Assembly: GCA_903858015.1 (NCBI GenBank)
Contig: CAIOGZ010000032.1
Coordinates: 1-64,000, forward strand
DNA: 64,000 nucleotides
Direction: 5' to 3'
Source of the DNA: an uncultured cyanobacterium
GTDB taxonomy: Bacteria > Cyanobacteriota > Cyanobacteriia > PCC-6307 > Cyanobiaceae
Positions 1 to 43,308 of this stretch are shown piece by piece. The number at the start of each line of letters is the position of its first letter. Position 1 is the stretch's first letter. The notes below the pieces were generated by a model, which had not been told where the DNA came from, made no database searches, and was given only the letters and a program-made list of their open reading frames with translations. The position numbers and the translations under genes were made by a program.

Positions 1-399
1 CTGGGCGGTGCCGTTATGGCGGACAAGGCTGGTATTGCCCTGCGATTCGATCGCGGTGAAGGGCGCACCGATGATCGAATCACTGTTGAGATCAAGCTGG
101 AAGGAAGTTTCCAGCTCCCAGCCGGCGCTGGAGTTGGGATCCACGAGGCCGGTATCGGCGCCGGTCCAGGCCCAGTTGGAATCGAGGGCCCAGACGTGCA
201 ATTGGCCGGTGGGGTTGTAACGCCAGAGGATCTTGTTGGCAGCGCCGATCGTTTCAGCGGCCAGCATCTGCCAGGTGGAGCTGGCGTTGCCAGGACTGGC
301 GGGTGATCCCATGAAGCTGATCGCCGTCGCGGATGAGCCAACGCTGGCGTAGGGCTGCCCATCACCACCGCGCAACAGGGCCGTATCGCCTTGACTTTC
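1..399 (-). other. Tryptophan-rich (W_rich_C-like) repeats of the giant protein
   Basis: From residue about 14304 the protein reads ESQGDTALLR..., then ILWRYNPTGQLHVWALDSN, then WELETSFQLDLNSDSIIG. At nt 48 a second copy begins (IESQGNTSLVRHNG) and runs off the edge. The alternating W-x-LDSN-W and ETSFQxDxNxDxxIG pattern matches the tryptophan-rich C-terminal domain described from Synechocystis proteins (W_rich_C). Such repeats usually sit near the C-terminus of large cyanobacterial RTX-type proteins, so the end of this gene may not be far to the left. That last point is inference. Confidence 0.75.
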
Positions 400-3300
400 C
401 AGTGCGGTGTCATCAGTGAGGATCGTGCCGACAACCGCAGCCGTGGTGCCGATGCTGTAGCCGCTGCCGGCGGCGAGGCTGAGGGCAACGGTTTCATCCG
501 GTTCGATCGTGCTGTCCGCCGTGGGATCCACCGTGACGCTGGCGGTGGAGGCTCCAGCGGCAAAGCCCACCGTCTTGGTGGCGGGGGTGGGGGCGATGCC
601 GGTGTAATCCGTTCCGAGCGCGGCGGTGCCGCCCACGCTGTAGTTCACCGACAGGCTGGTTGTGGTGGGCCCGGTTCTGGTGAAGGTGTAAGTGATGTTA
701 TTTGTTCCATCCTCGCTGACAAGTCCTGGCGCTGCAACAAGAGTGATGCTAGGAAGATCATCATTCTTGATCAGGGCTGTGGCGCTGCTGGCAGCTGGGT
801 CGATGCTCGCTCCGATCGGATCGGATAGCGACAGGGTGAATTGCTCGTCCGATTCAACATTAGTGTCGCCGATCACTTCGACCGTGATCGTTTTCTGATC
901 TTCTCCGGCTACGAATTGAACGCTGCCGGAGCTGAAGGCAGCAGCGCTGAAATCCGTCGCGGCGGCGGGGGAGGCACCACTTCCGCTGATGGTCCAGACA
1001 GCGGAGCTTTGCCGATCGAGGTCCCCGGCGCGGCTGACTGTGAACGTGAAAAGGGTTGAGCCGGTGTTGCCTTCGTTTCGTTGAACTTGATCGCCACTTA
1101 CCCGCAGGATCGGTGCAGGTAGGGTGCCCGCGAAAACAGCCGGGTCGAGAATGATTCCATTCGCAAGCCCATCGTCGTCGCCCCGTCCGCCGTCGCGGAT
1201 CCAGACCACGGCGCGTTCCTTGTTGCCGTCGTTGTCGTCATCATGGAAGATCGCGCCCGTACCGGTGATCGGGTCGTAGCCGAAGGAACGCCAGGCCCCC
1301 GTTATGTCCTGCTTGAGCAGGACGGGGTCGACAAGGCCTTCCCCAGGCAGATTCACCTCCACCTTCTGCAGGCTGCCGGGGGCGATGCCGGCGAGCTGGA
1401 AGCTCAGTTGGCCGAACAGGGGATCGCGGCCGGCCGCCTGTTGCTGGATCGCTTGGCGCGCCGCGGTGCTGAGCGAGCGAAGGCTGAGGTTGCTGAGGTT
1501 CGAGTCGCCACCGGGCGAACGAATCAACATCGCCTGGCTGGCCTGCTGCCGCGGGCTGCTCTGGTGGGCCTCGGCGGGCAGCAACGCCCAGTCCGTGCCA
1601 GACAGTTGCAGCAGCCCACGCTCGCCTGGAATCAAGCTGCTGAGGTCGAGCCGGATCGTTTCCCCGTTGCGCTGGAGGCTGAGGGTTGGTTCCAGGCCGT
1701 AGCGGCGCTCCAACAGGGCTCGCGGATCCAGGATGCGCCCATTCCCCTCTGCCGAAACCGCCAAGGCGCCAGCCAGGGATGGCTCGAACTGAACCCCCGC
1801 GAACGACCCCCCGAGCCTGGAGCGCAGCTCGTCCAGGAAGGGCTGCCGTGCTGGTGCCTGCCAGGCAATGTCGTTCCAGCGCACCAGCTGGTCTTCGCCG
1901 GCACTCGCCTCGATCCGAATCGCCGGGCTGCTGGCGCCATCCACCCCGGCGAACCGCAACCTCGCCAAAGAAACGGTTGCCGTGCCGGGCCAGCCGGCGG
2001 CCAGCGGATCGCTCCAGCTCAGTAGCAGCGATCCATCCTCCCGGCTTTCGCCCATCCAGCCGTCTCGAAACACAGAAACCACGCTGGCGTTGTCGAGCAG
2101 CTCGCCCCGCAGCGGGTCACTCAACCGCACCATCAGGCCTGGGCCTTGCGAGGCCAGCGGGCCTGGCTGGTAGGTCAACTCCAGTTCCTGCCCGTTCAGC
2201 CAGCGGCTGGTGAGCCGCAACGGCTGGCTCTCATCGTCGAGCAATTGCAAGGTCAAGGCTTCCGTGGGCAGCCCCACTCCGCCTGCGGGTGCCTCTAGCC
2301 GCAGCTCCAGCTCCCGATCTCCCAGCAGCAGGGCGTCGTTGCTGCTGGGCAGGATCAGGCTGGCGCGATCAGCGCCGGCTTTCAGCCACAGCAGGCCATC
2401 GAGACTGGGCAGCCGATCGGAGGCGCTGGCGTTGCGGGGGCTCAGGGTCCAGCGCAGGGCCAGGTCGGCCGTGGTGGGCCGATCGAGCAGCAGCTCCAGG
2501 GCAAAGGCTTCGCCTTCCTTCACCTGGTGCCTTCCGCCAACCCGCAGGGTGGGCAGGATGGCCGGGGTGGGTGGCTGGACCACCACGGTTGTGGAGGCCT
2601 GCACCATCGGCCGCTCTGGACCGTCGCTGGCGCCCAGCTGCAGGGCATAGCGGCCGGGCGGGGTGGATGGATCCACCACCAGGCTGCCGCCCTCGAGCCG
2701 AATCCCGGTTGGCAGCGGCGTGGCGTTGCCGCTCGCCAGGTTGAAGCGCAGCGGATCAGCGTTGGGGTCGATCAGCCAACCCTCCTGGACCAGATCCCAC
2801 CGGCCGGCAGCGGTTTCGCTGGCCACCAGGCTGGCGGGCAGCTTCCATACCGGCGCGAAATTGCGCTCGCGGACCGTGATCTCGAAGCGCAGCGCCACTG
2901 CCGTGGAGGGATCGCCATCGCTGGCCAGCACGGTGAACAGGTGGCGGCCGATCGCCTCGAACGGCAGGGAGCCCACGGACAGCCTGGCGGCGCTGGCATC
3001 GAGGCTGATCCCGGCAGGCAGGGTCCCCTCGCCGAGGCTGAAGCTCAAGGGGGTGCCATCGGGGTCGATCGCCAGGCTGCGCAGGTCGATGTGCAGGGGG
3101 GAGGGCGGGGTGTCGCCAGGCCTCGGACCGGTTTCCAGGGCCAGCCTCAACTGGTTCTCCTGGCCCAGAATCCGCCGCGGCGCATCCGGCACGTTGGTCA
3201 CCATCAGCGGCAGGGTGGCGTTGCCCTGGCTGCGGCCATCGCCGTAGTCGAGGCTGAGGTTGAGGGCGCCTTGATGGTCCACGCCCGGGCGCACCACCCA

Positions 3301-9300: not shown

Positions 9301-12300
9301 GATCGCCTGCACCGACCAGTCGTAGGTCTCACCGGGCAGGCCGGCGCTGAACAGGCCGCGGTTGTGGAAGCCCTGGTTGCCCGCGTCGGCCAGCCGCCGT
9401 TCGCCGCTGAGCGGATCGGCGAGGGGTGCGATCTGGTCGAACACCAGGCCGGCACCCGGGGCGACCCGGTCCTCGCCGCTGCGGGGAGCCCGACCCACCC
9501 CCAGGTTGTAGGTGTAGGGCGCGTCGTCGTTGCGCAGGTGGCTGAAGCTCCAGCCCAGCTGCACGGCGTTCTGATCACCGTTCCAGACCGCCTCGATCGC
9601 GTCGGGCCGATCGGGGCGGCGGTTAAGGATGCCGGCGAAGGGCGGTTCGCCCGGAGTGGGCTCGCTGAGGCGTTGGCTGGTGGTGTTGCGGAAGACCTGC
9701 AGGTAGGGCAGCTCGGCGCTGCCCTGCACACCGCTCACCGCCAGATCGAGATCGCCATCGAGATCGATGTCGCCCCAGCTGGCCACGGCGCGTTGCAGAC
9801 CCGGCAGGGCGATCGAGAGGCGCTCGAAGCCGCTGCCGCCACCCACCAGGGGATTGCGCAGCAGCTGGGTGGTGAGCAGGTCGGTGGCGGCGTCGCGGCC
9901 GCTGAGCAGCAGGTCGACGTCGCCGTCGTTGTCGATATCCGCCCACGTGGCTGAGCCCTCCTCCAGGGCCGGGATGTCGAGGATGCCCACCTGGAGGCGG
10001 AAGGCGCTGCTGCCGAGCACCGCCTGGGCGGAGGCGAGGCTGGTGGCATCGGCAAAGTTGATCGCCGGCGTCACCCGCAGCCGGGCGTTGGCCAGCTTTT
10101 CGCCCCAGGTGAAGCTGAGCAGATCGGCATCGCTGCCCTCGCCAGCGGCGAGCTCGTTGTCGCTGTCCTGGAGGCGATCGATCAGCTGATTGGCGCTGCC
10201 CAGGATCTGCAGCCGCAGGGCCAGCGGGGTGGCGGTGGCGCCGAACCGGGCGCTGAAGCTGGAGATGGCCTGGATCTGGTAAGTGCGGCCGGCGATCGGC
10301 GTGCCGATCAGCTCGGCCAGGCTGAACTCGCGGAACACGATGGTGTTGCCGTTATCGAGCCCGCTCACTCCCACCGGAGCGGGCAGCAGCGGATGGCTAC
10401 GGCCCGGCGCCGGGTCGGCGAGGGTGGCGCGCTGCAGATCCTGCTCAGAGAGCGGATGAATGGCGTCGTGCAGCGTCACCATCGCCAGGGAGGGCAGGCT
10501 GCTGCGGGCCGCTTCAGGCGTGCCCGGCAGGGCGAACACCGGGTCGTAGGCCACCATCCCGGCGCGGCCACCGCCCAGGTAGAGATCGGTGAGCGGACCG
10601 CCGAGGTCGACGTCGCCGAAGGCGGCCAGGGTGGCATCGGGGAAGAGGGAACCCTCGGCCAGCTCCAGCGCCGCCGCTCGGCTGATTGGTTCGAGGGCGG
10701 CGGTGTTGCGCAGCACCTCCAGCGGCGATTCCAGCGGCTTCAGCAGCACCTGCACCGAACCGTTGAGGCTGTGGATGTCATCGGTGAGGCCGATCGTGGT
10801 CGGCCGCAGGATCAGATCGCGGCGGAGCAGGTCGGCGAGTTCCTCGGCGGAGAAGGCGGGAGCCTGCACCACGGCGCCGTCGAGCCGATCGGAACGGCCC
10901 AGGGCGATCAGCTCGGCGAAGGAGCGGCCGCCGAGATCAACGAGGCTGCCCTTGGTGGAGAACAGCGCCGCGCTGGCGCTGCTGCTGCTGCTGCTGCTGG
11001 CGCCAGCCAACAGCAGCACCAACTGCTCGAGGGCGACGCGATCGGCGCTGAGGCCCTTGAGCACCGCCGTGTCGAGATGCAGCCGCGCCGCGCTTGGGAT
11101 CGGCCCCAGGTTGTTGATGGTGGCGTTGCTGAGATCGCGGCGGATGTTGACGGGGGCACTGCCCAGGCCGGTGGCCAGCCGGAGATCGAGGATGTCGAGT
11201 TTGTGGTTGAGGCTGCCGCTGCTGCTGGCGGCCCTGAAGTCGATCGTCCGCACCGGGCCCGCCAGCGCGGTGATCAGCGCCTGGCTGAGCTGGGTGGCCG
11301 TGTTGGCCGTACCGTTGAACTGCAGCGGGATCGTGGCGGTGCTGCCGTTGTAGTAAGTGACCGTGGCGATGAAGGAGCCGCGGCTGCTGGCTGCGAACGT
11401 GATTCCCTTGAGATTGAAGGCGTCGCCGCTTCCCTTGGACAGGCTGAGCAGGGGTAACGGCAGCACCGGCAGACCGGCGAGCGAGAGCTCGAGCGCGCCA
11501 GCCCGGATGCCCAGCAGCGCCTGACCCACAGCGCTGCCATTGACCTGGGCACCCTGGTAGGCGGAGATCTCAAGATCGGAGCCCGGCAGCCGGTAGGTCT
11601 TGTAGGCGAGCTCATAGGAGTTGGTCGTCAGTTCGGATCGGACCGTCGAGAGTTCATCGATCGACAGCTGCAGACCCACCCCCGAAAGGCCGTTGACCAG
11701 CGGGAAGCCAAACTTGCCACCCGTGACGTAATAGGGCGTGAAGCTGATGGCATCAACAGCGCCGGCGTAGGGATCGGCGTAGACCTGATCACCCTCCAGC
11801 CACACCACCCGCGAATCGACCAGATTGAAGGCCGATTGAGACCACTCCTCGGCCAGGTAGAGCTTGGTGGTATCCAGTGCTTTCTGATCCCCACTCCGGG
11901 TGTACTGATTAACGCGGAAGAGGTGCCCCGCCAGGTCGCGCTGAGCTTCCGCCATGCCCTTCAGGAGGTTCGAGACATAGGCCAGCTCGAGATTGACGCT
12001 GGCGATATCCGTCGGCTCGGGCAGGGCGATCGTGACCATGCTGGCCAGTGGATCCACGCTTGTGGATTTGATGCTGGCATCGTTGAACGTTGCTTCGAAT
12101 TGATCCAGCCAGCTGAAATTGGAACCGCCTTTGCTATCAGTGGCGGGCAGCCAATAGGCGGCATAGACCTCCGAGGCACTCTGCCCCTGCGATTCCTTCT
12201 CCTGTTCCAGCCTGGGGAACTCGCTGAATGCCCCGACACCCCCACCAGTCAGTCCCACCGTGGGTGAGATGATGCTGACCTTTTGATCTGAAGTGATGTA

Positions 12301-15300
12301 CGAGAGGCCAACCGTGGTTGATTTGGCGACATCTTGGTAAGAGCTCACCCCTAAATCCTTCGTTGTGGCAGCCTGCACATCCCAGATCAGCGCATTGGTG
12401 CTGACCCTCTCGCTGCTGCTGGTTTGGCTAATTCCTGTCGAGGCTGAAGCGGTCGGCAGGCCGCTGCTGAAGCTCTCCACCACCTCCGTGCCGGTGGGGT
12501 TGCTGGCCAGCAGCTGCAGCAGCTGCTGATCCACCACGTTGGCCAGCAGATCGAGTTGGAGCTGCTGGGCCGGGAAGTAGTTGATCGGCAGGGCGATGCT
12601 CTGCAGCGCCTCGGCAGCGGGCTGAACCGCCAGCGAAGCGGCCGGCTCCGCAGCCGTGCTCGCCAGCCGCGTCGCCACCGCTGCCGTGGCGGGGCTGCTG
12701 GCCGCCGAGAGGAGCGCATAGAAGGAGGGATCGAGGTCCAGCAGCAGCGAGGAGGTCCGACCGCGAACCAGGGAGGCATCGACCGTGGTGGCGTTGCTGT
12801 TATTGATCAGCCGCACCGGACTGCTGAGGCTGCTACTGAATTGATTCAGCCAGGGCTGGAGGCTGTCGCTTGCCAGCACGCCGCTGACCGCGTTGCCGGC
12901 CGCATCCACGCCGGTGCTGAGATGGAACAGTTCGGCCAGGAAGCGACGACCGGCGCTGAGCAGGTCCGTGTCGGCTCCGCTCGCCGTCACCAGGGGTCGG
13001 TCGTGCACGATCGGCCCGCTGGGATTGGGGCCGGTGAGCTCGTTGAGGTCGAAGTCGGCGTTGAGGATGTCGCTGCGGGGGTTGCCACGCACCGCGATCA
13101 GCGAATCATCGATGCCGAGGAAATAAACGTAGGCCGGATCATGGCGGAAGGTGAGCGGTGTCTGGTTGAAGGCGCCGTTGCCCAGCAGCTGCCACTGGTC
13201 CTGGTGCTCCAGCAGGAAGGCATCCAGCGCCGAACCTGCGCCCTGGCGGGCCAGGGCAACCGCGGCGCCCTGGTTGGCGGGCGCCGTCTCGACGATGCCG
13301 GCGCTGGGGTTGAAGGCGCTGCCGCTGAACAGACTGCGCGGCAGACGGAAGAGGGCATAGGAGGCCTCGAAGTTGCCACGGCCCAGCTCCAGTTCCACCA
13401 GGGTGCGCAGATCGAGCCGCTGGTTGATCCGTTGGGCTGCCGGGAGGGCAGCGCCGCCCGGCAGCTGATCCTCCAAACCAGCCAGGAAGCGATCGAGCAC
13501 CACCAGGTCCTGGGGCACATCGAACAGGGTGCTGTCGGAGCGCCAGAAGCTCACCGCCTGCTGGAACGACTCCTGTTCGTAATCGAGGCCCTGCCAGCTG
13601 CGGTTCACCGCGATATCCATGCCGCTGGCCAGGCGGGCGGAGGGATCGAGCGAATCGCGATCGCCGCTGTTGTGCTCACCCTGCTCGGTGTCGTAGTAGC
13701 CGAACTGCAGCCGAGCGCCGCCCATGCCGGCGAGCAGGTCCTGCGGGAAGGGGGCCTGGCCGTTGCCGGGGATCACCAGCAGCGTGTCCCGGCCGCTGCT
13801 CGAGACGGCCACATCCGCCAGCCCGTCGGCGTCAAGGTCGCCCCAGGCGCCGCGCAGGATCGCCGCGGGGTCGTTCTCCCAGCTGCTGAGGGCGGCGGCC
13901 CAGGCGGCCGGGGTGACGACGCGGAAGCCGATGCCGCCGTCGTTCTGGAGCACCTCCACCCTGTTGCGGCGCACGAAGTCATCGCCGGTGCGCTGGCCGC
14001 TGACCAGCAGATCGATCCAACCATCGCGGTTCCAGTCGCCCCATGCGGCCTGGTGGATCTGATCGAAGCCGGGCAGATCGAAGCTGGCGGTGAACACACG
14101 CCCACCGGCGGCGTCGATGTCGTTGATCAGGATCTGGGCTTCGCCGTGGCCGAGGCTGTCGAAACCCCAGTGCAGCAGATCGAGGTCGGTGTCGTTGTCG
14201 ACGTCGCCCCAGGCAACGCCGCCCTCCCAGTCGCGGGTCTCAGCGCTGAACAGCCCGCGGTTGAGCTGGGGCACCAGCAGATCGGTGCTGCCCAGCACGT
14301 CCAGCGAGGTGATCGTGACACCGGTGCGCAGGGCCTCGGTGCCGATCGTTGCGAAGGCGCCGCCATTGAGGCTCCATTCGAGCTTCACGGCATGGTCGCC
14401 GGAGCTGCCGTTCACCGCCGGATCCCGCCAGCGCAGTTCCAGATCCACGGCGCGGTCGGCGCGCAGGCGGAGCTGTTCGGCGTCGCTGTCGATCTTCTCG
14501 CCATCGATGAACAGCTCCCAGGCATCGCTCCGGTCGGCGTCGGCGCTGACCCGGAAGCGGTAGTAACCCTCCTCGGCCGGCTGCAGCTGGCCGCGCCAGC
14601 GGGCCGACAGCGCCCCATCCCAGCTCTTCGGTAGACCGCTGGCCGTGTCGCGATCGCTGCCGCTGGGCAGCAGGTAGCCCCAGTCGAAATCGATGCCGGC
14701 ATCGACGCGCCGCAGGAAGCGCTGCTGGAAGTCAGCGCCGAAGTAGTAGTCGCCGATTAGGCCGTACTGGCGGATGGCGCTGATCGCGCCGGAGCCGCTG
14801 CCATCAGCTTCGAAATAGTTCTCGATCGTCAGATCGCGGCCCGGATTGACTACCCCATCGGCATCAAGGTCGATGATCAGGTCGTTGTTGCCGCTGCGGC
14901 CGCTGCCGTTGCCGCGCCCAAAACCGATGCTGCCCTCCTGCACGCCATCAAGGCTGAGCAGATGGGGCAGCTCCAGGGTTAGTTCATCCTCAGCGCCGAT
15001 CGGGCCACCCTGATCGCGGATCACCGTGCCGCCGGCCGTCATCCGCAGCCAGCCCACGCTGTCGTCGGCCGCGGCGCGGCGGTAGAGCAGCTGGTCGGGC
15101 GTGAAGCCGAGCCGTTCGTACTGCTGCCACTGCACCTCACCGCGCCAGCGGCGTGGATCGGCCCAGAGGCGGAACTTTTCCCAACTGATCACGTCGCCAT
15201 CGATCTCCACCGGCCGCAGCGAGCTCGGATCCCCGCCGAGGCTGCGGAACGCCTGCTCCAGCGTGAGCAGGGGCGTGCGGAGGCTGTAGCGGTCATCGCC

Positions 15301-27300: not shown

Positions 27301-30300
27301 GTCGCCCTCGTTGCCATCGAGCTCATCGCTGGCGCTGCCGCCCTCCAGCTGGTCGTTGCCGGCGCCGCCCCGCAGCACGTCGGCCCCGGCCCCGCCGATC
27401 GCCCGGTCATGGCCGGCGTTGCCCTCGATCAGGTCGTCGCCCTCATCGCCGAACAGCCAGTCGGCGGCATCGCCGCCCTGCAGCTGGTCGTTGTCGACCC
27501 CGCCCATCAGCAGGTCTTCGTCGCTGCCACCCTCGAGTCGATCCTCGCCGGCGCCACCCTCGAGCGTGTCGCGGCCCGCCCCACCGCTGAGCTGATCGTT
27601 GCCGGTCTCGCCGCGGAGCAGATCCACCCCATCCTCACCCTGGAGGGTGTCGGCCCCGCTGCCACCGAACAAGCTGTCGGCCTCGCTGCCAGCCCGCAGC
27701 AGGTCGTTGCCGAGCCCGCCTTCCAGCAGATCGCTGCCGCTGCCCCCCTCCAGCAGGTCGTTGCCCTCCTCGCCCTGGAGGCGATCGTTGCCGGCATCAC
27801 CGCGCAGCTGGTCGGCGCCGCTGCCGCCCAGCAGCAGATCGTTGCCGAGATCGCCGATCAGAATGTCTTCGCCGCTGCCGCCTTCGAGCGTGTCGTTGGC
27901 GTCGTCGCCATCGATGCTGTCGTTGCCACTGCCGCCGCGTAGCAGATCGCCATCGGCACCGCCCTGCAGCTGATCGTCGCCATCGCCGCCCTCCAGCTGG
28001 TCGGCACCCTTGTCGCCGAACAGTCGGTCGTTGCCGGCCTCGCCATCGATCCGGTCGTTGTCGTCGCCGCCCTGGATGCGGTCGTCGCCGGCGCCACCGC
28101 GCAGCAGGTCGGCACCGGCCTCGCCGTAGATCAGGTCATCGCCGCCGCCGCCTTCCACCGTGTCGATGCCGGCACCGGCCGCGACCGTGTCCTGACCGGC
28201 CTCGCCCTCGAGGCGATTGGCGCCGGCATTGCCGACCAGCAGATCGTTGCCGTCGCCGCCCTTGAGGGTGTCGGCCTCGAAGCCGAGCACGGCAGCGGAG
28301 CTGCCGCTGCGAAAATCCTGCAGTGGCAGGCTGCCACCGGCGGCGGCGGAGCCCGCCACCAGCACGTCGTCACCGGCTCCACCCTCGAGCAGATCGATGC
28401 CGGCATCACCGAGCAAGGTGTCGGCCCCGGCGCCGCCGCGCTGGCTGTCGGCACCGGCTCCGCCCTCGATCCTGTCGTTGCCGTCGTTGCCCTCCAGCAG
28501 GTCGGCGCCCTGATCGCCGAGCAGGGTGTCGTTGCCGGCTCCGCCCTGGAGGCTGTCGTCGCCAAGACCAGCATCGGCGTGGTCATCGCCATCGCCGCCC
28601 TCTAAGCGGTCGGCGCCGGCCGCGCCGACCAGGCTGTCGTTGCCGGCATCACCGCGCAGCAGATCGGCGCCGTCCTGGCCTTCTAGCCGGTCGTTGCCCT
28701 CGCCGCCTTCAAGGCTGTCCTGGCCCGGGCCGCCCTGGAGTGTGTCGGCGCCAGCGTTGCCCCGCAGCAGGTCGTTGCCTTCATCGCCCTTGATCTGGTC
28801 GTTGGCGCTGCCGCCAGCGAGGCTGTCGTCGCCGCTGTTGCCGCGCAGCTCGAGGGCACGGCTCAACTGGGCGGCGTCGATGGCATCGTTGCCTTCACCG
28901 GCATCACCCTTGACGTTCTGGATGCCGGCGAAGCTCTCGCTCTGGCCGCCGGGGCCTTCGATCACGACGTCCTGGCCCTGCATGCGCAGGGTCATGGTCT
29001 CGGGACCATCGCTTGGATCGATGTTGCGTTCCTCGGCCCGCGGACCGATGTTCAGCAACAGCACCGTGGCGGCATCCGGGGCGGAGGCGTAGTAGGGCTT
29101 CGGCGGGGCGCCACCGGGTATCTCTACGCTGAACAGCTCGAATTCCGGTGTTTCGTAGATGGTGAACGACACCGAGAAGGGATCGATGCCTGCCTCGACG
29201 CCGATCGAGGCGGAGAGGGCGACGCGGATGGCGGCATCGAAGATCGCCAGCGGGTTGTAGCTGAAGTTGTCGAACAGCTCCTGGAAGCGCACCCGGCCGT
29301 CGCCGTTGGGGTCGTTGAGCTCGATCTCGAGGGTGCCGCGGATGTGGGCGTCACCGCGCACCTTGAGGATCGGCAGGCCGACGCTGACGCCACCGCTCAC
29401 CTCCAAGCGGATCTCGGCGCCGGCCCCGGGGTACTGACTGCCGTTGACGATGTTGCCGGGCTCGTCATCGAGCACGTAGAAGCCATCGGCGAGGGCCATC
29501 AGTTCGCCGGTCTCGATCAGACCCGCCAGGCCGGTGAGGTCGTAGCCGAGGATGGTGGGGCGGATGTAGGGGGTGATGCTGGCCCCCACCTCCAGATTCA
29601 CTGGCGGCGGAGCGTAGATCGGGCCGATGCTTTGGTTGAAGTCCCAGCTGGTGGAGAAACCCTGGATCTGCAGGCGGATCAGATCGAGCTCGTAGCGGCT
29701 GGCGGGATCGGTGCCCATCAGCAGGTTGATCAGCCGCGAGGAGGTGTAGGCGAAATCGAGGAAGGGGAAGGAGACTTCGGTCTGGCCGATATCCGGTGCA
29801 CTGAAGGCCGCCGTATTCAGGCCAACAGGGCCGCCATCGCCCATCGCGCCGCTCAGCACATCGACCGCGTCCTGCAGTACGCCCTGGGGCGAGCCTGGGC
29901 TGGGCGCGCTAGATCGCGTTTCGGCGTCGATCGTTTGGGTGCGGAAGATATTGAGGTTGGGCCCGCTAAAGGCGGGACCGGCCACGATCGTGTGCAGCTC
30001 GTCGGGCAGAAATAGCCAGGCGGGAATGCTGATCTGGTCCGAATCCTGGAGGCGGGCGACCGTATCCACCACATCATTGATGCCGTGGTAGAGGTTGACC
30101 CACTGGGTAACGGCACCATTCGGATTGCCGTCGATGCTCAGATCAATCAGGTTGTGCAGCTTGCCATCACCGAGCAGCTGCAGTCCGGCGATCGAAAACT
30201 CGGTTTCGAGCAGATCCACCACGGGCTCGAGCGGATCGAGGAAATACTCATTCAGGAACTGGGCGATCTTGACGAATGGGCCGCTGGCGGCCACCAGCTC

Positions 30301-33300
30301 TTCACCGAGATTGAGCTTGATATCGCCGGGACGAAAAACAAAGGGGGTGAGTGAGAAATTGAAACCTGAAGACCCCAGCTCGCCATAGCCACCAAATAAC
30401 ATCTCCCCATCGATGCTGACCACATCGCCCAGCGAGGCGGTGATCGTCGGATCGATCTCGAAGCCCACCTTGGCCAGCGGCTCGAGCTCCAGCTGGCCGA
30501 TGTCCGCCAGGGGCACCAGGCCCGTTCCAGGACCCTGGAGGTCGATGCCGAGCAGCAGCGCGCCGCTGAGGAAGGGATCGTCGGCGGCGGCCAGCGCGGG
30601 CGTAAGCCCCTCGGCCGCAGAGCCCACCCCGAGAATGTTGGTGTCGGAGCTGGCGGCCTCGAGTTCGAGGAAGCCGAGCCGACCGCGCAGGGGCTGGGTG
30701 CTCTGCAGGGTGGCGCCCACCAGCAGCTCGGGGCTACCGCCGGAAGTGCCGTCGAGCAGCAGGGCCATGTCGGCCGGCAGGCGGGAGCCGAGGTTCTGGC
30801 TGACGCCGGCGGCGGTGTCGAGCAGGAAGCTGGAGCCGAGATCGGGGGCGTTGGCATCGAAGGCGAAGCCGATCGAACCTTCGGCAAACAGGTTGAGATC
30901 GAAGCCACCGCTCAGCTCGAGGATGTCGCCGAGGCTGGTGTCGAAGTCGAGATCAATCGTGGTCGAAAGACCATTGAGCTTCAGGTAGAAGCGGTAGTAA
31001 TCGGGAGCATGTTCACCGAGGCGATTGGGATCGGCGCGTACATCGGTGAGGTAATCCCGGAGTGCCTGCAGGCGCGCCGCCCCAGTGCTACCCAGCCGCT
31101 CAAAGGCACCGAGCTGCGCAATCAGGTCAGGCCCGCTGAAGCTGCGATCGGCAGTATCGGTGGCGTTGCGGATCTGGCTTGCCGCGACCGCGCTGCCGTC
31201 GAGGCGTTCCAGGATGATCAGGTGCTCGTGGCCGCTGGCGGCGTCGAGCCGCTGCAGGATGGTGAACGGGGTAGCGAAAGCGGTGGCGGGAACGACCTTC
31301 TTGTAGCCATCGGGCAGCAGGATGGCGTCGTTATTGCCAAGGAAAATATGGGTGGTGCGGTCCTGCCCCTCAAGATCAAAGTCGCCGGAGAGTTTATAGT
31401 TGAGTGAACCAGCCGAGGCGTTGCTATAGCGGGCGCTGGTATCAAGGCGGATCAGCTTTTCGCCGCTGCCGGATGAATCGGCAACGCAGAAGTAGGCATC
31501 GAAGATCGGCCTCGAGCGCAGCTCCAGGCTCAGCACCTCCGGCAGCACGGCATCGATCCTGGGGATCAGATTCCAGGGCAGTACCTGCTCGCCCAGGCCG
31601 CGCAGATCGGCCAGGGCTTTTTCGGCCACGTCGAAGCTACCGGTGAAGCGCTTGATGTCCGCCCCCAGCTCCGGGGCGAAGGTCTTCATCAAGGGGTTAT
31701 CGGCAACGCCCGCTTCGATCGCGTTCTGCACGTTGTCGATCGTTTGCTCCAGCTGGGCCAGGATGAACAGCACCTGCTGCAGCCCGAAGCTGCCGCAGTT
31801 GAGCAGATCCCCTGTATCTTCCAGCGACTGAACCCCCTCCTCGTAGGCCTCTTGGAACGGTTCGAGGGTTTCCAAGGCGGCATCACCGAGCTGTTCGGCG
31901 AGGTCCAGCAGCAGTTCGGGGTTGAACTCCACAGCGGCATCGAAGCCGCTGGCCACCCCCAGCACGCCGCCGCCGAGGGCATGGCCGATGTCGACCAGCT
32001 CGGGGCGCAGGTAGCTGGTGCCGTTGCCGCCCTGCACCTGTAGATCCAGCCCCGCGGCGATGCCCGCCTGCAGCAGGGATTCGCCTGGTGCACTGCGGGC
32101 CGTCAGGCCGGCGAGGTTGACCTGGAGATCGGCGACATCCAGCCAGGCCCGGGCGAACAGCTCCGTGCCGCTGGCGTTGAGCTCGGCGAAGGCGCCGGGG
32201 TCGAGCCCCGCCGGCAGGGTGAAGGGGCTGCTGCCAGGGGCGGTATCGATGACGAAGAACTCGCCCACCGAGCGGGCGTCGAGGTCGAAGCCGAAGCCGA
32301 GCTGGGCATCGATATCGATGCCGATGCTCCAATCGGCGCTGATATCGAAGCCGGCGGGAAGGTTGATCTCGGCCAGTTCCGCCAGCAGGGCGCTGAGGCT
32401 CTGGTCGTCGCCGCCGGCGCTCCAGTCGAGACCGTCGCCGAAATCCAGCTCGAAGAGATAGAGCAGCGGCGTTCGCACGGCCGGGTCGTGCTCGGGGCAT
32501 TCGCCGGCGAAGGCATCGGGCGTGGCTCGCTCCACCAGGGTGAGGGTGATGTCCCCGAGGCCGGCGGCATCCATCGCCTGGTTGAAACGGGTCGCCCATT
32601 CATCCGGCGGCAGGATGCGATCGGTGAAGCTGCGCACCGTGTTGGCCACGGTGGTGAAGCCGTCGCCGACGTCGTCAAAGCTGAAGCCCAGGGCTGCCGC
32701 CACGGCGCTGATCACCGGATCGCCGCCGAGATTGCCCACCAGGGAATCCCGCAGCGCCTCGATCCGATCCGCCAGTCCGGTGAGCATCGCCAGCCAGTTG
32801 GCGGCTGTGAGGGCGCCTTCATCGAGACCGCAAAGGGCCCCATCGAGGGCCTCGGTCACGGCGTCGACGGCATCGCCGATCGCGTCGGCGGTCGAGCCGA
32901 GCGGGTTGCCAGCCAGCAGGAAATCAAGCAGCTGCTCAAGCTGCAGACTGAGGCTGCCGGCGGCGTTGGCGCTGATGTCGACATCGCGCAGGGGCACCAG
33001 CCCCTGGTCGGCGGCATTGGTCAGCGAGCCGTGGTGGAGATCCAGCGCCGCCGCGGCCTCCAGGCCCAGCAGGGAGCGGGCATCGGGCAGTTCGATCAGG
33101 GCGGTGGCCCGCAGGTCGGTGCTGGCGAGGCCGTCGGCGCGCAGCCGCATCCCGGCCGGCAGGGAGGCGATGTAGGTCTGGCTGGCCGGATCGCTGCCCA
33201 CCAGGCGCAGATCAAGGCTGATCCGCTCGCTGACCGGCGACCAGGTGCTGCCGGCGCCGCGCTCGAACAGATGGCGGCCAGCGGCCACCTGCTGCAGTTG

Positions 33301-36300
33301 CAGTTGCAAGGACTCGGGCCGCTCGTTACCGGTGCGGAACAACGCCAGATCGCCGAGCGGGTTGGGGTCGGCGCCGGGGGCATCGGCCAGGGAGAAGCTG
33401 AGCACTCCGCTGGCCGCGCTCACCCAGTTGGCGGGCAGATCGCTGCTGCTGAGCTTGAAGCGATCGGGCCGCTGCAGGCGGTCGAGACCGGCATCGAGGC
33501 GCAGTAGGGCTTCGGCGAACACCGGGTCGTATCCGGCGGGTGCGGTGTCGAAGCTCCAGAGGTCCTCCGGCTGGCGCTCCACCCAGCCGGCATAGGGCAG
33601 CACGCCGCGGCTGTCGACATAGAAGAGCTCGGCCAGATCGCCGCTGCGGCTGTCGTAGCCGGCGATCAGGCCGCCATTGATGCCGAAGTGGTAGCTGAAC
33701 TCGGCCTCATAGCCCTCGCCCACCGAACCCAGGGCCTCGAGCAGGGGGCTGCTGCCGAGGGAATCGCCGAGCAGATTGACCAGATCGGTGAGCCGCAGGG
33801 AGGTGCTGTCGCCGAAGCTGAAACCATCGCCGAAGTCGAGGCGGTAGACGTAGAGATCAGGCGGGCAGTCGAGGCTGGGCGGATCGACGATCAGGCCGCC
33901 CTGGATGGGCTCTTCAGCCTCGAAGGTGATCGCCACGAAACGGTTGGTCGGGACATTCAGCCGCGGATCACCGGGGGGGGCGGCGGCAACGCTGGGCAGG
34001 TAGAGATTGCGTGGATCATTTTCCGGCAGGATGCGGATGCGCAGATCGAAATCCAACGCCCCAACCTGATCATCACTGAACTGGTCGCTGAGATCGGCCG
34101 AGATCAGATCAAAGCTGCTGCCGGGGTTGTTGTATTGCAGCCGGTTGCCACCTGCGGGGGCGTCGTAGACGGCGAAACCGTTGCGGGCCGGATCCCATTC
34201 CAGCCAGAAGGTATCGGGCGTCTGATGCAATTGCTGCAGGGCTACGATATCGTTGATCGTGTAGTTGGCGATGCCATCAAGATCAACGACGCTCTGATAG
34301 CTCATCAGGGTGACCGCTTTGTTCGTGGTCCCACTGGCTTCAGGGTCCACGTCCGAATCCATCGCCGTGGTTGTCGGATCGGCATCGACATCATGCGGAT
34401 GCTCAAGGGCCAGCGAATGGGCCAGTTCATGCAGGGCGACACTCTTCCAGGCCTGCTCAATTGAATTGCCGTAGTACATCAAGCGTTCTTGCGTCGCTTC
34501 ATCATCGAAAGTGATCCCGCCCCAGTTGCGATCAATGGATCCTTCGTGAACCGTGCCAGGCTGGTAAACGCCCAGAGCTCCGGATTCCGATAATTTTGGG
34601 TCGCTGATTATCGTCAGATAGCCACTTGGGTAGAGACTGGGACTGGCCTTGATCAAGGCAGGGATATTGCCATTAACCAATCCAATTTCAGTGAATTTGG
34701 CAGGAATGAATTGCTCCGCATAGTCGAAGGCATCACGCCACCAATCCCGGGATTCATCCGAGGCACCACTGTCAAAAACATAGGGAATCTCGCCATCCGG
34801 TGCCGTGGTTGGTGAATACCAGTCGTACTTGGCAAGTGGGTAAGCAGGATCGCTGAATCCACCCTCTTTGATATAATCTAAGTTGTAGGTCAGCGACGCC
34901 GGGTTGATGCCGGTGCTGAACACGCTCCGGTCGGAGAAGGTCACCGCCACCCGGTTGCGGCCGAAGGCCCCGCTGGCGCCGACACTGTCGCCAAAGCTGT
35001 TCGCCGCCAGGTCGATCACCCAGGCGCCGCTCTGCTCGCGCACGCCGGTGCCGTTGTTGAGGTTGCGCCGGGGTGAGTTGCCATAGCGGTTGGCGAAGGT
35101 CAGGAGGTCGGCGTCGCTGAGGACCCCCTGGCTGACCAGCTCCAGCACGGCGCCACCAAGGCGAAGTTTGGCCAGATTGATGTTGGCCGCATCGTGCAGC
35201 TGCGCCGGGGTCAGCGGTGCGGCGCGATCGAAGCGCTCGTCGTTGAGGTTGTAGCTGTTGACCCCACCGGCATTGAACTGCTCCATCCGGTTGGTGGAGA
35301 GCAGCCATTCCTGCTCGGCCCGCTGCAGCAGGGTGCCGAGAGCCAGCCGGCCGGGGCTGCCGCTGGTCATGGCGGCCAGATCGGCCAGCATGCGGGCTTC
35401 GAGGCCAGGGCTGATCGACTGATCGTCGGTGGAGGCGATCAGCTCGATCGCCCGCAATTCCGGCAGGGCACCGCTGCCGCCGGAGGCGGCGAACGACTTC
35501 CAGGCATTGCGGATCTGCTGCTGGCGCGTCGCATCGAGTTCGTAGCGGCCGCTGGCGAAGTCGACCCTCTGCGCTACATCGGGCTGCTCGATCGTGGTCG
35601 CCCCGGCGCTGGGCCGGAAGAACTGCAGCTGCTGGCTGCGGGCGGCATCGCGGAACAACCTCAGCCGCCCGGGACCTGTGTTGCCGCTATCGGCCTGCAC
35701 CGTGAAGTAGTAATAGCCGCTGATCGGCTCACCGCCGCTGGTCTGCAGCGGGCGGGCCGGATCCAGCTGCGCCACCTGCACGCGCATCGCGTTGCTGAGT
35801 GCCGCGGCACTCACCTGCAGTGAGATGCTGCCGCTCGGGGCGGCGATAGTGGCGCTAAGGCGTGAGCCGCCGCTGGCGGCGTCGTAGAGGGCGAAGCCGG
35901 TGCGGTCCGCGTCCCAGGCCAGCCAGACGCTGCTTTCAGGCACGGTGGCGCCGGCGCCATTGCGCAGGACGAGGGCGTTGCCGGCATCGCCGATCGACAC
36001 CTCGAAACGACCGCCGGCATAGCCGAAGCTGCCATCGGCGAGCTTGATCACCCATTCCTCGCGGCCGCCGGCCGCGACGGCGCTGAACCGCTCCAGGGAG
36101 ACGTTCAGGTCGATGTCCTGGGCGGCGGGACGGTAAAGGCTGACGTCCTCGACCTTGATCCAGGAATCGGACGGGGAGGGATTGAAGTCGTCCGCACGGG
36201 TGAGGAACACCTGCGGCTGGATGCGGAGGTCCTCGTCGTCGCAGCAGCTGCTGGAGGGATTGGTGGGCCTGGCCAGCAGGCTGAGATGGATATCGAGGTT

Positions 36301-39300
36301 GTTCTCGCTGAAGATCGTGTTGATGCTGCCCACGAAACCCTCGGCGCTCAGCCAGCGGTCGCGGAAGGCGGCCATGTCGTCGGTGATCGCGTTGAAACGA
36401 TCGGCCAGGGCGGAGGCCTCGCCGAGCCACTCCGTCGGCACCCAGTCCGGGAGGGCATCGGCCCGGGTCTCGAGCGCCTCGATTTGGCTGGAGAGCTGAT
36501 CCGCCAGCCGGTCAACGGTGTCGATGAAGCCGTTGACGAAGGCGAACCAACCGGCGGGGCACTCCGGCAGGGCCAGGTCTGCGAAGCCGTCGAGGGCTGA
36601 CTGGATCTGGCCGGCCAGGGCCAGGCCCGCCTCGCGGGCATCGTCGGCCACCTCCGCGACCAGGGCGAGCAGGTCGGTCTCGCTGAGGTCGAGGCTCCCA
36701 CCGCCGGCCAGTTGCGGGGCCGAGAGGTCGCCGATCGGGGACTGGTCGCCGGGTAGGTTCTCGCCGATCAGATCGAGGCCCAGGGCCAGCCGCAGGTGGA
36801 AGGTGTCGTCCGGATCGCCGATGGCGCTGAGGCGATAGACGTGCGGGTTGCCGCTGGCATCGAGCAGCAGGGGGGTGGAGAAGCTGAGATCGGTGAGGCG
36901 CAGCGAAGCGGCGATCGCCAGCTCCTGATCCGCCACCGCGGGCGCGCTGCCGGCCGGAAGGGTGAAGGAGAAAAAGTGTTCCTGGTTGAAGTCCGGCCAA
37001 AGGCCCGCCGCCGGCAGGCCGACCGCGGTGTCGAGCAGTCGCACCCCGTCGTCGCAGGATTCAAGAATCGCGAGGCTGCCGCCGGCCGCGAGATCGAACT
37101 GGAAGGTGGCGCTCAGGTCGCCGAGCACCAGCGCCAGCACGTCGGCGAGCACGTCGCCCACCTGGCTGCCCTGGCCGGCGAAGGAGGCCGCGAAGCCGGC
37201 GGCATCGAGCTGGATTGTGCGGCTGATCTGCAGATCGGTGGTCGGCAGTAGTTCGTAGCGATCCGTGGCGGCGGCGCCGCTACCGCTGCTGCTGTGGGCC
37301 AGCTGCAGCGGGATGTCGGCGCCGCGGAACAGGGTGTTGACCCGCTGCACCAGGGCGGCTGGATCAAGGATGGTGTCCTGGAAGCTGCGGATCGCCGCGC
37401 TGATGCTCACCAGCCCGTCGCCGAGGCCGCCGAGCAGGGAAGCGGGCTCGTCCGGCAGCCAGTCCGGCAGGCGATCAAGCAGGTCGCTGCCGGCTTGGAA
37501 GCGGCTGCCGACCGAGGCGACGAGATCGGCGATCGCCGGCAGCAGGGTGCGCCAGCAGGCCAGTTCCGCCGCCGTGGGCAGATCCAGGCCGCTGAACAGA
37601 TCGTCGACCTGCGCCAGCACGGCGCTTCCCAGCTCGCCGGCCAGATCAGCCACCAGATCCAGGAGCGGATCGACGGCCAGATCGAGATCGAGCCGCAGGC
37701 CCGCCGCGATCGTGAGGCTCGGATCACCCACCAGCACGAGGGCATCGCTGAGGGGCACGGGGCTGCCGGGGCTGCGCCGCTGCAGATCGAGGCCCGCGCC
37801 GGCGTTGAGGCGCAGCACCTCGCCGGGGTTCTCCAGCCGGGCCGTGGAGGCGGCCGTGAGGCCGGGCACGGCCGCGCTGATCTGCAGGTCCTCGAGCTGC
37901 AGCCGCAGCTGGGCGGTGAGCTCGGCGTTGGTGGGATCGAGGGCGTCGCCGCTGCGGAAGCTGAACGTGTGGCCGGCGTCGGGATCCCCCTCCGGCCAGT
38001 CCGGGCGGGGCAGGTTGAGGCCGATCGTGTCGACGTAGAGGAAGCGATCGAAGCTGGTGGCGCGGCTGTCGTAGCCGAACACCAGGCGGCCGTCGAGGTC
38101 GAGGTCGAGGCTGAAGCTGCCCTCCACCTGGCCATCGATCAGGGAGAGGGCGGTGTCGACGGCGCTGCCGAGATCCGGGCTCAGCCCCGCCAGCAGCGAG
38201 CTGAGGGCGCCGCTGCTGAGGTTGAAGCTTCGCTCTAGCTCGCTGCCCTCGGCGAAGGCGAGCTCGTAGATGTAAATGGCCGGATCGCAGCCGGCCGGCG
38301 CCGGCGCCTCCACCAGCAGCTCGGTGGTGCTGCCGGGGGTGAGGCCCAGCTCAACCCGCACGAAGCGGTCTTGATCGCGGGGCTGGCCGGTGCTGCCGGG
38401 TTCGTTTTCGGGCAGCAGGCGCAGGCTGAGGCCCGCCCCACCGCCGGCGCCGAGCAGGAGTTGGTTGCCGGGCCGGTCGCTGTCGTCGGGGTTGCGGAAG
38501 CGGGCGATCGCCGCGTCGAGGTCGGCGCTGCTAAGGGCACCGGTGTCGAGCAGTTCGCGCAGGGCCGAGAGGGCGCGGGCCTGGGCCAGCTGCCGGTTGG
38601 CCGCATCGCCGAGGGCACCGCTCTGCTCGCCGGGGATCAGGGTCTGATCCCACTCGAGCAGGGCCCGTTGCAGCAGGGTGTGGAGGCGGGCGTCGACACT
38701 GCCGACCGGGGCGCTGGCCAGGCCGCTGATCAGGCCGGAGAGCTGGCTGGTGAGGGCACCCGAGACCCCCTGGTCGTCGGTGGAAGCGGTGACCAGCAGC
38801 TGTCGAGTGGCTGCCGGGAGCTGGGCGAAGGGGAGCAGGCACTGGCGCAGGCGGAGGCGCTCGGCCGGATTGAACAGGTAGCCACCGCTGGCGAAATCGC
38901 TGTTGCTGACCGTGGCCAGGGGGATGCCGCCGCTGGCGCGGCGCAGTTGCACGTTTTGGCCGCCGGAGCGCAGCTGGATCTCGGCGGGCTGGCCGCCGCC
39001 GGCCGGCACGGGCTGGTAGCCGAAGCTCTCTTGGCTGCCGAAGGGCAGCCAGCTGCTGCCGCCATCGCGGCTCAGCTGCAGATCGCCGCCTGGGGCCAGG
39101 TAGGAGACCAGACCGGTCTGGCCGCTGCGCAGCGTGCCGGCAGGAAGCTGCAGCACCAGGGTGAGCGGCGCGTCCGGCTTGAAGCTCACCTGCTCGGGCA
39201 CCACCAGCCGCTGGTCAACCAGCACCACGAAGCGGCCGGGGTCGAGGGCGCTGCGGGCTGGGTCCAGCGCGGCAACCGTGAGTTCGAGCCGCTGGCCGCC

Positions 39301-42300
39301 CACGGCGGTGGCGTCGCGGTTGAGGAAGGGGGCCAGGGTGTTGCCGCTGCCATCGCGCAGGGCGGCGGCGTCGAGCCGGTGCACCACCAGGCTGGCGTCG
39401 GGCGCGAGGCCGGCGGGCAGGCTTAGCCGCAGGGTGCCGTCAGCGCCGATCGCGCTGGCGGGGTGGCTGAGGTCGGCGCTGCGCAGCAGGCTCGGCGGCG
39501 GCACCACAGCGGGCGGGGTGTCGCAGCAATCGGCGGCATCGGTGGCGGGCCGCGCCAGCAGCCGCAGCCGCAGGCTGAGATCGGCGTCGGCGAAGAGACC
39601 GTTGACCAGACCGACGAAGTTCTCAGCGCTGAGCACCTGGGAGCGGAACCGCCCGAGCTCACCCACCACCTGGCGCAGGCCGTCCGCCAGGCCATCGGCG
39701 GCATCCAGCGCCTCGGCCGGCAGCCAGGCGGGCAGGGCCGGCAGGGTATCGAGACGCCTGGAGAGATCGCTCACCAGGCCGATGAAGCGATCCACGAACG
39801 CCAGCCATTCGGCCGGGCAGGCTCCGGGGCCCTCGAGGTCTGAAAGGCTGGCGCCGATCGCCTCGAGTTCGTCGCTTACGGCCTGGCTGAACTGCTCGAA
39901 CAGGCCGGCAAGATCGCCATCGCGGGCCAGCCGCAGCTGGAGGGCGGCGTCGCCCCGCAGCTGCAGGGCTTCACCGGCAGCGGCGAGCGGCACGATGCCG
40001 GGGCCGAGCCGGGGGTCAGCGCCGACCCTGACCAGATCGAGGTAGGCGGCACCATCGAGGCGCACCAGCCGGGTGAGGTCGATGCCGCCCAGCCAGGCGG
40101 GCAGGCTCTCGCCGGGCGCCAGGGCGATCGAGGCGCTGAAGCCCGCCAGCAGCTCGGCCTGGTCGCCGTCAAAGCCGTCGAGCCGGGGCAGCAGCGCGGC
40201 CCAGTCGATGCTGGAGCCGGGGCCGAACGATGCGGCGCCCAGGGCCGCAGTTCCCGCTGCGGGGCCGTTGGTATCGAGCAACAGGGCCTGCTCGGGGATG
40301 GCGCTGCCCAGATCAATGCCGAAGCGCAGCACCCCCTGCAGCTCCGCCTGCAGCTGGGCGGTGACCGTGGGCAGATCGGGGGGGGCGATGCCGAGGGCCG
40401 AGCTGAGCAGGGCCTCGAGCGGCAGCGGCAGGGACACGGCGGTGCGCATCCCGGTCAGATCGAGCTCCAGCCAGTAGGGCGTGGCGGTGGCGGGCAGGGC
40501 GTTGAGGCCGGGCAGGCTGCCCCGCAAGACCACCCGCCGATCGCCGCTGAGGCCAAGCGGAGTGTTGATCTTGCTGTCCACCAGGGTCTGGAGCCGCTGC
40601 ACCAACTGCTGCGGCAGCACCGGCCCCAGCTCCAGCAGGCCGTTCTGCAGGTCCCGCAGCGGCTTGGTGAGCAGGGCGGCATAGCGCTCCCGCTCGGCCT
40701 CGCTGAGCAGCGGAGCGAGCACGGCTGCATCAAGCAGGCCACTCTCCAGCTGGTCTGCCACCGCATCGGTGAGCCGTACCAGGCCTGCGAGTACGCCCTG
40801 GAGGGTTGCAAGATCCCAGCTGGTCAGGCCCGCCAGGGCCTGGCTGTCGCCATCGCGGACCGCCTCCAGCACGAGGCGGCCGTAGGCGTCGAAGTCGAAG
40901 CGGCGGATCGCGTCCCACACCCGGGGGCTGAGGTCGGCCAGCCGCTGCCAGGGATTGAGGTCGCCGGCGCTGAAGTCCTGCAGGATCGACCAGGCGGCGG
41001 GATCGAGCCGCAGGATCCGGTCGGCGCTGGTCCGGTCGAGGGCCGCGAACCAGGCCTGGAGCTCCGAACTGCCGGCCAGCAGGGCTGCGGCGGTGGCCTG
41101 GGCCGCCGGATCGGCCAGCAGCGGCGGCAGGGCATCGAGCAGATCGACGGCGCCGATCAGGTCGGAGAGCTCGAAATCAAGGCTGGCCGCCTCGATCAGG
41201 TTGGCGAGATCGAGCCGGTTGGCGAGATCCAGCAGGGCGCCGGGCAGGGCCGCCAGGGCCGCAGCGCTGGCGATGCTCGTGCCGATTTCGCTGAAGCGGA
41301 AGCCATCCTCCGGCGCCAGCCAGAGGGGCAGCAGCGGCAGGGAGGGATTGCTGAGGGCGGCCAGCAGGTCAGCGCTGATGCCGGGTATCGCGCCGCTGGC
41401 CAGGGCTGCGGCCGATTCCTGGCTAGCCAGTCCCTCCCGCAGCAGTGGCTCCAGCGCCGGGATCCGCTCGAGCAGGCGGTTGACCATGCCGGCCTCGCCA
41501 TCGGCCCGCTGGGCGTTGTCATACCCCCAGAGCAGCAGCCCGGCCGCCAGGGCCTCCCCGCCGGCCCCCTGCCAGAAGGCTGGGTCGTCGGCGTTGCCCT
41601 GGGCGGCGTCGTTGAACAACAAACCGAAGAGCAGGCGCAGATCCTGCACCGCGTAGGAGGCGGTGAAGCGGCTGAGCAGATCCCCCAGGTCAAGGCTGGG
41701 GTCGCCGCCGCCGTACACGCTGCCCTGGCCGCTGCTCCAGCTGGTCTGCAGTGTGCCGCTGCCGGCCAGCCGGCGTTCGAGATCGAAGCTGGCCGCCACG
41801 AAGCGAGCGGCGGGATCGGTGGGGCTGCTGCCCTGCTCCCAGGCCAGGCTGTAGGTGGCGTCGCGGTAGCGGCGCAGCCCGTCGTTGGCCAGCGGCCGAC
41901 GGGGCACCGGCGGCAGGAGGCTCTGCAGTGGCTCGCTGCTGGAGCCGGGCACGCTGGCCAGCCGCTCCAGCAGGTAGCTGTGCACGGCGTCGGCCCGGGC
42001 CACCGCCAGGCCGGAATTGTTGCCCTCGTAGCCCAGGTTGAGCAATTTGGTGCGCAGGGCCGGGGACAGGGGCTCGGCGTCGGTGGAGGCGCTGATCCGC
42101 AGGTCGGCGATCGTTTGGTTGCCGGCGGCGATCGACGCCACGAGTCGATCGAGCTCCGCCCGTTCGCTGGCTGGCAGCTGGAAGGCGCCGGAGGCGTAGA
42201 GGTTGTTGAAATCCCGCTGGGCGTAGCTGAGCGTCTCCTGGTCCTGGTCCAGACGGATGCGGTCGACAGGCCCACCACTGGCCCCGATGCCGGCATAGAC

Positions 42301-43308: not shown

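Follow-up and report, generated by a model that had tools for sequence, protein, structure and literature searches.

A giant gene for a predicted surface protein in Cyanobiaceae, with a body conserved across genera and a tail that differs between lineages

A single, real and unbroken gene was found to occupy most of a stretch of 64,000 nucleotides (the window) from an uncultured cyanobacterium of the family Cyanobiaceae. It is read on the minus strand at 1..43308 and is defined by its open frame and by its orthologues; 14,436 codons are visible, the 3' end being lost at the contig edge. The size class was already known; the conservation across genera and the exchange of tails are new. Judged by alignment, the new element is a body of some 13,000-14,000 residues that has stayed collinear from genus to genus and whose tails have been exchanged. 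Our preferred reading, to which we give a probability of roughly 0.6, is that the gene encodes a single exported surface giant of about 1.5 MDa, acidic, poor in cysteine and calcium-binding, made of a conserved body and an exchangeable sorting tail, its export, location and function being predictions.

Starting at the ATG at 43308, the frame runs to base 1 without a stop codon or an N. A first-pass annotation of the window had proposed one gene of more than 14,436 codons, in phase at every domain landmark: both points are borne out, since the frame spans all of these landmarks and complete orthologues exist. In a random control of 1,000,000 codons with the dinucleotide content of the gene, the longest stop-free run was 650 codons, which rules out a chance open frame, and GC content was highest at third and lowest at second codon positions in 25 out of 25 tiles of the gene. 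The visible part of the protein has a predicted mass of 1,507 kDa, a pI of 4.33 and 16 cysteines in 14,436 residues. Long frames were also seen antisense to the gene, one of 1,238 aa on the plus strand of the window (23470-27186), facing the last part of RTX block 1 and the sequence after it, and one of 4,186 aa in the giant of genome G140; rather than genes, these are probably a side effect of codon use in GC-rich sequence.

The window and contig C32 (107,525 bases in length) of the source assembly G000, a draft of 3.84 Mb in 100 contigs, begin at the same base; the 3' end of the gene was thus lost to an assembly break, and not to the cut of the window. The break falls at the start of the second copy of a W_rich_C repeat. 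The same edge repeat is found at the ends of contigs C8, C17, C95 and C37, at 85-92% identity in those matches that fall within or span the first 360 bases. The assembly breaks at W_rich_C repeats on five contig ends (C8, C17, C32, C37 and C95), so that tail lengths are not readable in this genome. Read in the direction of the gene, C8, C95 and C37 begin inside W_rich_C repeats and run for 443, 213 and 115 codons, respectively, to a stop, and C17 holds the front part of a different protein, which leaves the contig within the same repeat. A further contig, C62, matches the Calx-beta stretch of the window, and its frame ends, by eye, in a different kind of tail. No exact suffix-prefix overlap of at least 10 bases was found between the edge of C32 and the candidate ends of C8, C37, C95 and C62, and none of the four was chosen for joining. 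Nor did the neighbours on the downstream side of the giant in G498 and G140 decide on joining, since no counterpart of them turned up in the G000 stretches examined. If the gene ends as C8, C95 or C37 do, its full length is likely to be about 14,500-14,900 aa (14,500 to 15,000 in the widest form); further repeats may have collapsed at the contig edge.

The comparison with relatives for presence and length, proposed along with the gene, yielded complete orthologues of 14,496 and 15,041 aa. The shorter one (ATG to TGA) lies in a genome of another genus, assembled as a single 3.18-Mb contig (G140), and is collinear with the window gene, with 65% identity over 13,198 aligned residues. The longer one (ATG to TAA) comes from a congeneric MAG, uncultured cyanobacterium Loc090907-1m_bin-282 (G498), and is likewise collinear, with 68% identity over 14,024 residues; genome G580 features the same contig, coordinates and frame length, and is the same as G498. 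Two more genomes contain the gene as a single long frame, both in stretches with a GC content of 0.49: in G651, 14,499 codons are open until the contig end, 14,486 of them from the first ATG, and in G636 13,954 codons run from the contig edge to a stop. G147 carries the giant material split between a frame of 3,129 and one of 11,299 codons, with a 26-base overlap where a homologous stretch holds a run of A (contig C1, around 2174520-2174545). The G651 protein aligns in one piece across this site, and the split may reflect a sequence error, a real mutation or slippage. For the G651, G636 and G147 proteins the match to the window starts near residue 740, and the N-terminal part was looked for upstream of the G147 gene and not found; to judge by these alignments, this branch seems to lack the N-terminal addition that holds OmpA-like module 1. 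A frame of 10,005 aa in G680 was excluded as length evidence, 12,835 of its 30,016 bases being N.

A first contig search with the N-terminal 1,200 residues returned no match, and a second, alignment-based one recovered one MAG, which indicates that the first was too insensitive. With the N-terminal 1,200 residues as query, 3 of 151 family genomes match (the source genome, G140 and G147). A profile of residues 3950-4780, built from the window and G140, matches 4 of 386 genomes of the phylum (the source genome and G147, with G198 and G290 as weak matches) and 9 of 400 genomes of the family, all three genome sets being sampled draws. Seven of the nine are strong (the source genome, G580, G140, G147, G636, G651 and G680) and fall in four genera; the remaining two, G127 and G144, are weak, with E about 3e-4. 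In the genus of the window, 2 of the 22 listed genomes carry the gene, 371 non-matching genomes of unstated genus standing outside that list. By these searches, the distribution of the gene is patchy.

The strong selection that had been postulated for so costly a protein is recovered in part: comparison with either complete orthologue shows purifying selection in all 500-residue bins, but a weaker one than in a housekeeping gene. Simple Nei-Gojobori counts, which at high GC give rough values, yield a dN/dS of 0.413 against G140 (29 bins of 500 residues, 0.18-0.68) and of 0.367 against G498 (29 bins, 0.14-0.67), compared with 0.155 for AcnB between window and G498 by the same count. AcnB, a core gene, is 88% identical between the window and G140 or G498, and the giant 65-68%; the giant has thus diverged faster. 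Its GC content (0.692) is close to that of the right flank (0.681), and the gene therefore does not stand out as foreign; across the four genera, giant-bearing stretches range in GC from 0.49 to 0.69.

A scan of the flank identified the upstream neighbour of the giant as a FAD-dependent oxidoreductase (DAO) gene, at 43988..45085 on the minus strand. It belongs to a block, AcnB - radical SAM - Wzy-like - PsbQ - DAO, which recurs in G498 on contig C80. Just past the block this contig breaks off within a W_rich_C frame, and contig C34 carries the G498 giant behind another W_rich_C tail; the arrangement suggests that window and G498 likely share the same genomic site, across a contig gap. The site is a different one in G140, whose giant lies at 2,835,559 and whose AcnB gene lies at 64,859.

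Among the domains named in the first-pass annotation, OmpA, RTX, Calx-beta and W_rich_C exceed their Pfam cut-offs and FG-GAP_3 does so in shorter pieces, whereas PA14 falls just under and M10 clearly so. All features described below lie on the minus strand. OmpA-like module 1 (residues 371-448, 41965..42198) scores 29.7 bits with PF00691, over the cut-off of 27.2, and is also found in G140 and G498, the G498 copy reaching 15.6 bits, under the cut-off. Modules 2 (residues ~1468-1600, 38509..38907) and 3 (residues ~2579-2735, 35104..35574) were identified solely by similarity to module 1, in the case of module 2 by phmmer. Module 2 is shared with G498, G140, G147, G651 and G636; module 3 has full counterparts in G498 and G140, and only partial, weak matches in G636 and G147. 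The Asp and Arg that we take to be the ligand-site residues of OmpA appear, by eye, to be kept in all three window modules, the Asp being lost in module 2 of G147 and G651.

Between residues ~930 and ~3945 (31474..40521), tile-wise phmmer detected about five degenerate copies of a beta-rich and helical unit, interrupted by OmpA-like modules 2 and 3 and by the protease insert; a self-BLAST of long segments showed no repeats. Structure models of the repeat unit and of the pre-RTX region reached a pLDDT of 53 and 27, respectively, and were dropped as evidence. A Foldseek search with the former gave no match at E 0.001 or better. Sequence searches of solved structures returned, for the repeat unit, a best E of 0.0022, limited to the helical part and unconvincing, and nothing convincing for the tail region.

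The protease that had been placed in the domain order keeps its zinc-binding signature, but is an optional insert. This metzincin-like piece (residues 2801-3031, 34216..34908) contains HELAHSLALEH and LMSY, both present also in G498, in accordance with the HExxHxxxxxH motif and Met-turn of the metzincin, or M10, proteases; with Pfam M10 it scores 15.0 bits, against a cut-off of 24, and a sequence search of solved structures with E up to 1 found no M10 chain. The insert is a clean one, found in G498 and absent from the G140 orthologue, where the flanks align on both sides, and neither the G651 nor the G636 frame showed the HExxHxxxxxH motif. A stretch with the motif GNSLGA, near the N-terminus of the G140 and G498 proteins and absent from the window, may, on that motif, be lipase-like; Pfam recognized no lipase family in either protein, and the best solved-structure match of the G498 stretch (E 0.15) was not convincing. 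By this comparison, the enzyme-like inserts are optional and would not be needed for the body, and scans of the giant proteins found no enzyme family over its Pfam cut-off.

The main RTX block (block 1, residues ~4800-5600, 26509..28911) features 25 stretches of PF00353, with 399 bits, and holds 30 of the 40 GGxGxD repeats of the protein. Two smaller ones, located by Pfam scan and repeat positions, are found at residues ~8860-8960 (block 2, 16429..16731) and ~9285-9340 (block 3, 15289..15456). They are followed by a marginal PA14-like domain (residues 9562-9650, 14359..14625; 23.8 bits, cut-off 24), by FG-GAP repeats of the propeller type (PF13517) at residues 9702-9769 (14002..14205) and 11124-11191 (9736..9939), which in shorter pieces score 32.1 and 27.1 with FG-GAP_3, over the cut-off of 26.9, and by an Ig-like He_PIG domain (residues 13400-13479, 2872..3111; PF05345, 32.2 bits, cut-off 24). 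In residues 5600-8800 and most of 9800-13400, no Pfam family other than those named exceeds its cut-off. The C-terminal end contains a choice-of-anchor U domain (residues 13964-14060, 1129..1419; NF041766), a Calx-beta domain (residues 14083-14184, 757..1062; PF03160, 52 bits, cut-off 27) and the first W_rich_C repeat of the tail (67..342; PF07483, 68.2 bits, cut-off 26.2), the second beginning at the contig edge.

The body closes with the choice-of-anchor domain, and the type of tail that follows it differs between lineages. The choice-of-anchor U scan covered the window and four orthologue C-termini, all of which score over the cut-off of 32 bits: 44.2 in the window, 42.9 in G140, 50.9 in G498, 34.2 in G147 and 39.0 in G636, where the best stretch is short. 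Behind this domain, window and G498 feature Calx-beta and W_rich_C, the G498 protein ending with one W_rich_C copy, and G140 features Calx-beta, cadherin-like, RTX and bluetail sequences. By eye, the G147 and G636 tails resemble EF-hand or dockerin sequences, and no Pfam family names them; they may differ from each other, as the G636 tail gave no match in G147.

In all four genomes tested (G000, G498, G140 and G636) the tail type of the giant recurs on other proteins of the same genome. W_rich_C matches number 16 in G000 and 5 in G498, with none in G140, G147 and 14 control genomes. The G636 tail has 8 matches in 7 G636 frames, that of the giant included, and none in the other five genomes searched. 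Bluetail matches number 5 in G140, 3 in G000, 2 in G498 and 2 in G147, and are seen in 2 of 14 control genomes; since G000, G498 and G147 have bluetail too, the tails are not one per lineage. In a frame of 1,792 aa on contig C8 the W_rich_C copies are internal, with more sequence behind them, and W_rich_C may accordingly bind something instead of sorting the protein.

Several other large frames came to light in the same genomes. Contig C114 of G498 contains, on the minus strand from 113973 to beyond 80001, a second giant frame of 13,014 codons, with W_rich_C at 87136-87426; a BLAST comparison of 11,324 of these codons with the window gene found nothing at 1e-10. On contig C1 of G147, bluetail sequences at 35293-35436 and 2583710-2583808 fall in frames of 8,785 and 4,768 codons, which are candidate surface giants. 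A large protein on C17 of G000 (26679-34886) has RCC1-like repeats, Calx-beta and three W_rich_C stretches, and runs off the contig. In G636 the giant has large neighbours on the opposite strand (contig C9, 41931-54998), three of which match its C-terminal tail. Long frames on C95 of G000 (3447-7826, 11326-14841, 15368-16921 and 17786-19999), two of them with a TIR-like start and the last LanM-like, by eye, possibly form a conflict gene group.

With respect to export, a simple hydropathy scan of the N-terminus (Kyte-Doolittle, 19 residues, windows starting before residue 60) found no hydrophobic segment above 0.94, and the giant may carry no Sec-type signal. A few internal 19-residue windows reach 1.6-1.75, and may be weak membrane segments. 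The RTX repeats and the low cysteine content are in line with export by a type I system. By the 40 GGxGxD nonapeptides, the acidity, the paucity of cysteine and perhaps the N-terminus, not Sec-like in this simple scan, the giant resembles the RTX proteins of type I systems; it differs from them in that no exporter gene is adjacent, the RTX blocks are internal, and in window and G498 the tail is a non-RTX one. The usual type I RTX proteins are far shorter than the giant. A Pfam scan of 20 right-flank frames identified no exporter family. On contig C77, unlinked to the giant, a HlyD-type gene adjoins a cNMP/C39/ABC exporter gene. The HlyD hit of this pair falls slightly short of the family threshold, the best one of G000 scoring 198.2 against an NCBIfam cut-off of 208.65; the search responds in 13 of 14 controls, in one of them over the cut-off, so that weaker hits say little.

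We infer the following course. The protein would exit through a type-I-like exporter, C-terminus first, and would fold outside the cell on calcium at the RTX blocks; the tail would hold it at or beyond the outer surface, and the optional enzyme-like inserts would tune it. By analogy with SwmB of marine Synechococcus, its likeliest role would be that of a long surface protein for contact or interaction, adhesion or shielding, perhaps against grazers. A bolder and doubtful proposal would tether the chain at two ends: the protein would leave tail first, the tail hooking to the surface system of the lineage, the OmpA-like modules, exported last, would stay on the periplasmic peptidoglycan, and a chain of more than 11,000 residues would span the outer membrane as a permanently stalled substrate, with the metzincin-like insert, which follows directly on the last OmpA-like module, acting where present as a release blade.

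Other explanations of the gene have to be weighed against that of a single exported surface protein. The giant chain might be a polyprotein precursor that, after export, is cleaved into a number of functional pieces, perhaps through the metzincin-like domain it carries: the zinc-protease signature lies between the OmpA-like part and the rest, and is conserved with G498. However, G140 keeps the body on both sides without the protease, and the signature does not appear in G651 and G636, which makes a precursor unlikely. The optional enzyme-like inserts, namely the protease signature of window and G498 and the lipase-like motif of G140 and G498, could also be taken to indicate an offensive or degradative secreted protein, a lytic or digestive weapon of the kind proposed for giants of Omnitrophota and relatives, in place of a shield or an adhesin. 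Yet these inserts vary, the conserved body is made of calcium-binding and Ig- or propeller-type modules, Pfam identified no lipase family in G140 or G498, and the lipase-like stretch of G498 had no convincing relative among solved structures; we consider a weapon equally improbable.

An assembly chimera or a decaying gene might be suspected from the contig end, which falls inside a repeat common to several loci, and from the overlapping frames of G147. Against it speak the two complete collinear orthologues, the long frames of two further genomes, the purifying selection seen in every bin and the recurrence in G498 of the order Calx-beta, W_rich_C, and the orthologues and the selection lead us to reject it as very improbable, only the last few hundred bases at the edge remaining doubtful. 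The reading we prefer is still that of one exported surface giant with an exchangeable sorting tail.

The gene had been held to be exceptional in size, which is not so for its group: giant frames of marine Synechococcus are given as 5,016-84,534 bp (PMC2441476), and SwmB of marine Synechococcus WH8102 has 10,791 aa. SwmB is reported to serve in swimming and in resisting grazing (PMC9387257; PMC7994388). RTX, cadherin-like, M10 and tryptophan-rich modules are all reported in the marine Synechococcus giants (PMC9387257, PMC4949707, PMC2441476), and large W-rich and M10-bearing proteins have been seen in Synechococcus exoproteomes (PMC4949707). SwmB and these giants resemble the present one in size class (a single frame of more than 10,000 codons), in coming from related hosts, in being rich in repeats and in their expected place at the cell surface. 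The likeness is one of description, with no claim of homology, and the difference is that here a full-length body is conserved across four genera with exchanged tails. With the W_rich_C (PF07483) proteins the giant shares a tail repeat over the curated cut-off, but in G140, G147 and G636 the same body bears other tails. The giants of Omnitrophota and other PVC bacteria, of up to 85,800 aa (cited in PMC12057145), are likewise very long predicted surface proteins; they are described as having multiple transmembrane helices and carbohydrate-degradation domains (PMC12057145), whereas the Pfam scans here brought no enzyme family over its cut-off. Searches of the open PMC literature listed no description of the present family, most subscription papers lying outside that set.

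The literature describes giant genes as strain-specific (Reva and Tummler, as cited in PMC11573180), and similarity of such large proteins among strains is said to be rare (PMC4949707); giants so described are hard to study by comparison. A gene conserved along most of its sequence in four genera of a single cyanobacterial family provides a natural set of variants. With their exchangeable tails and optional enzyme-like inserts, these can be used to ask what purpose a surface protein of 1.5 MDa serves, and whether tail swaps really do re-sort choice-of-anchor bodies.
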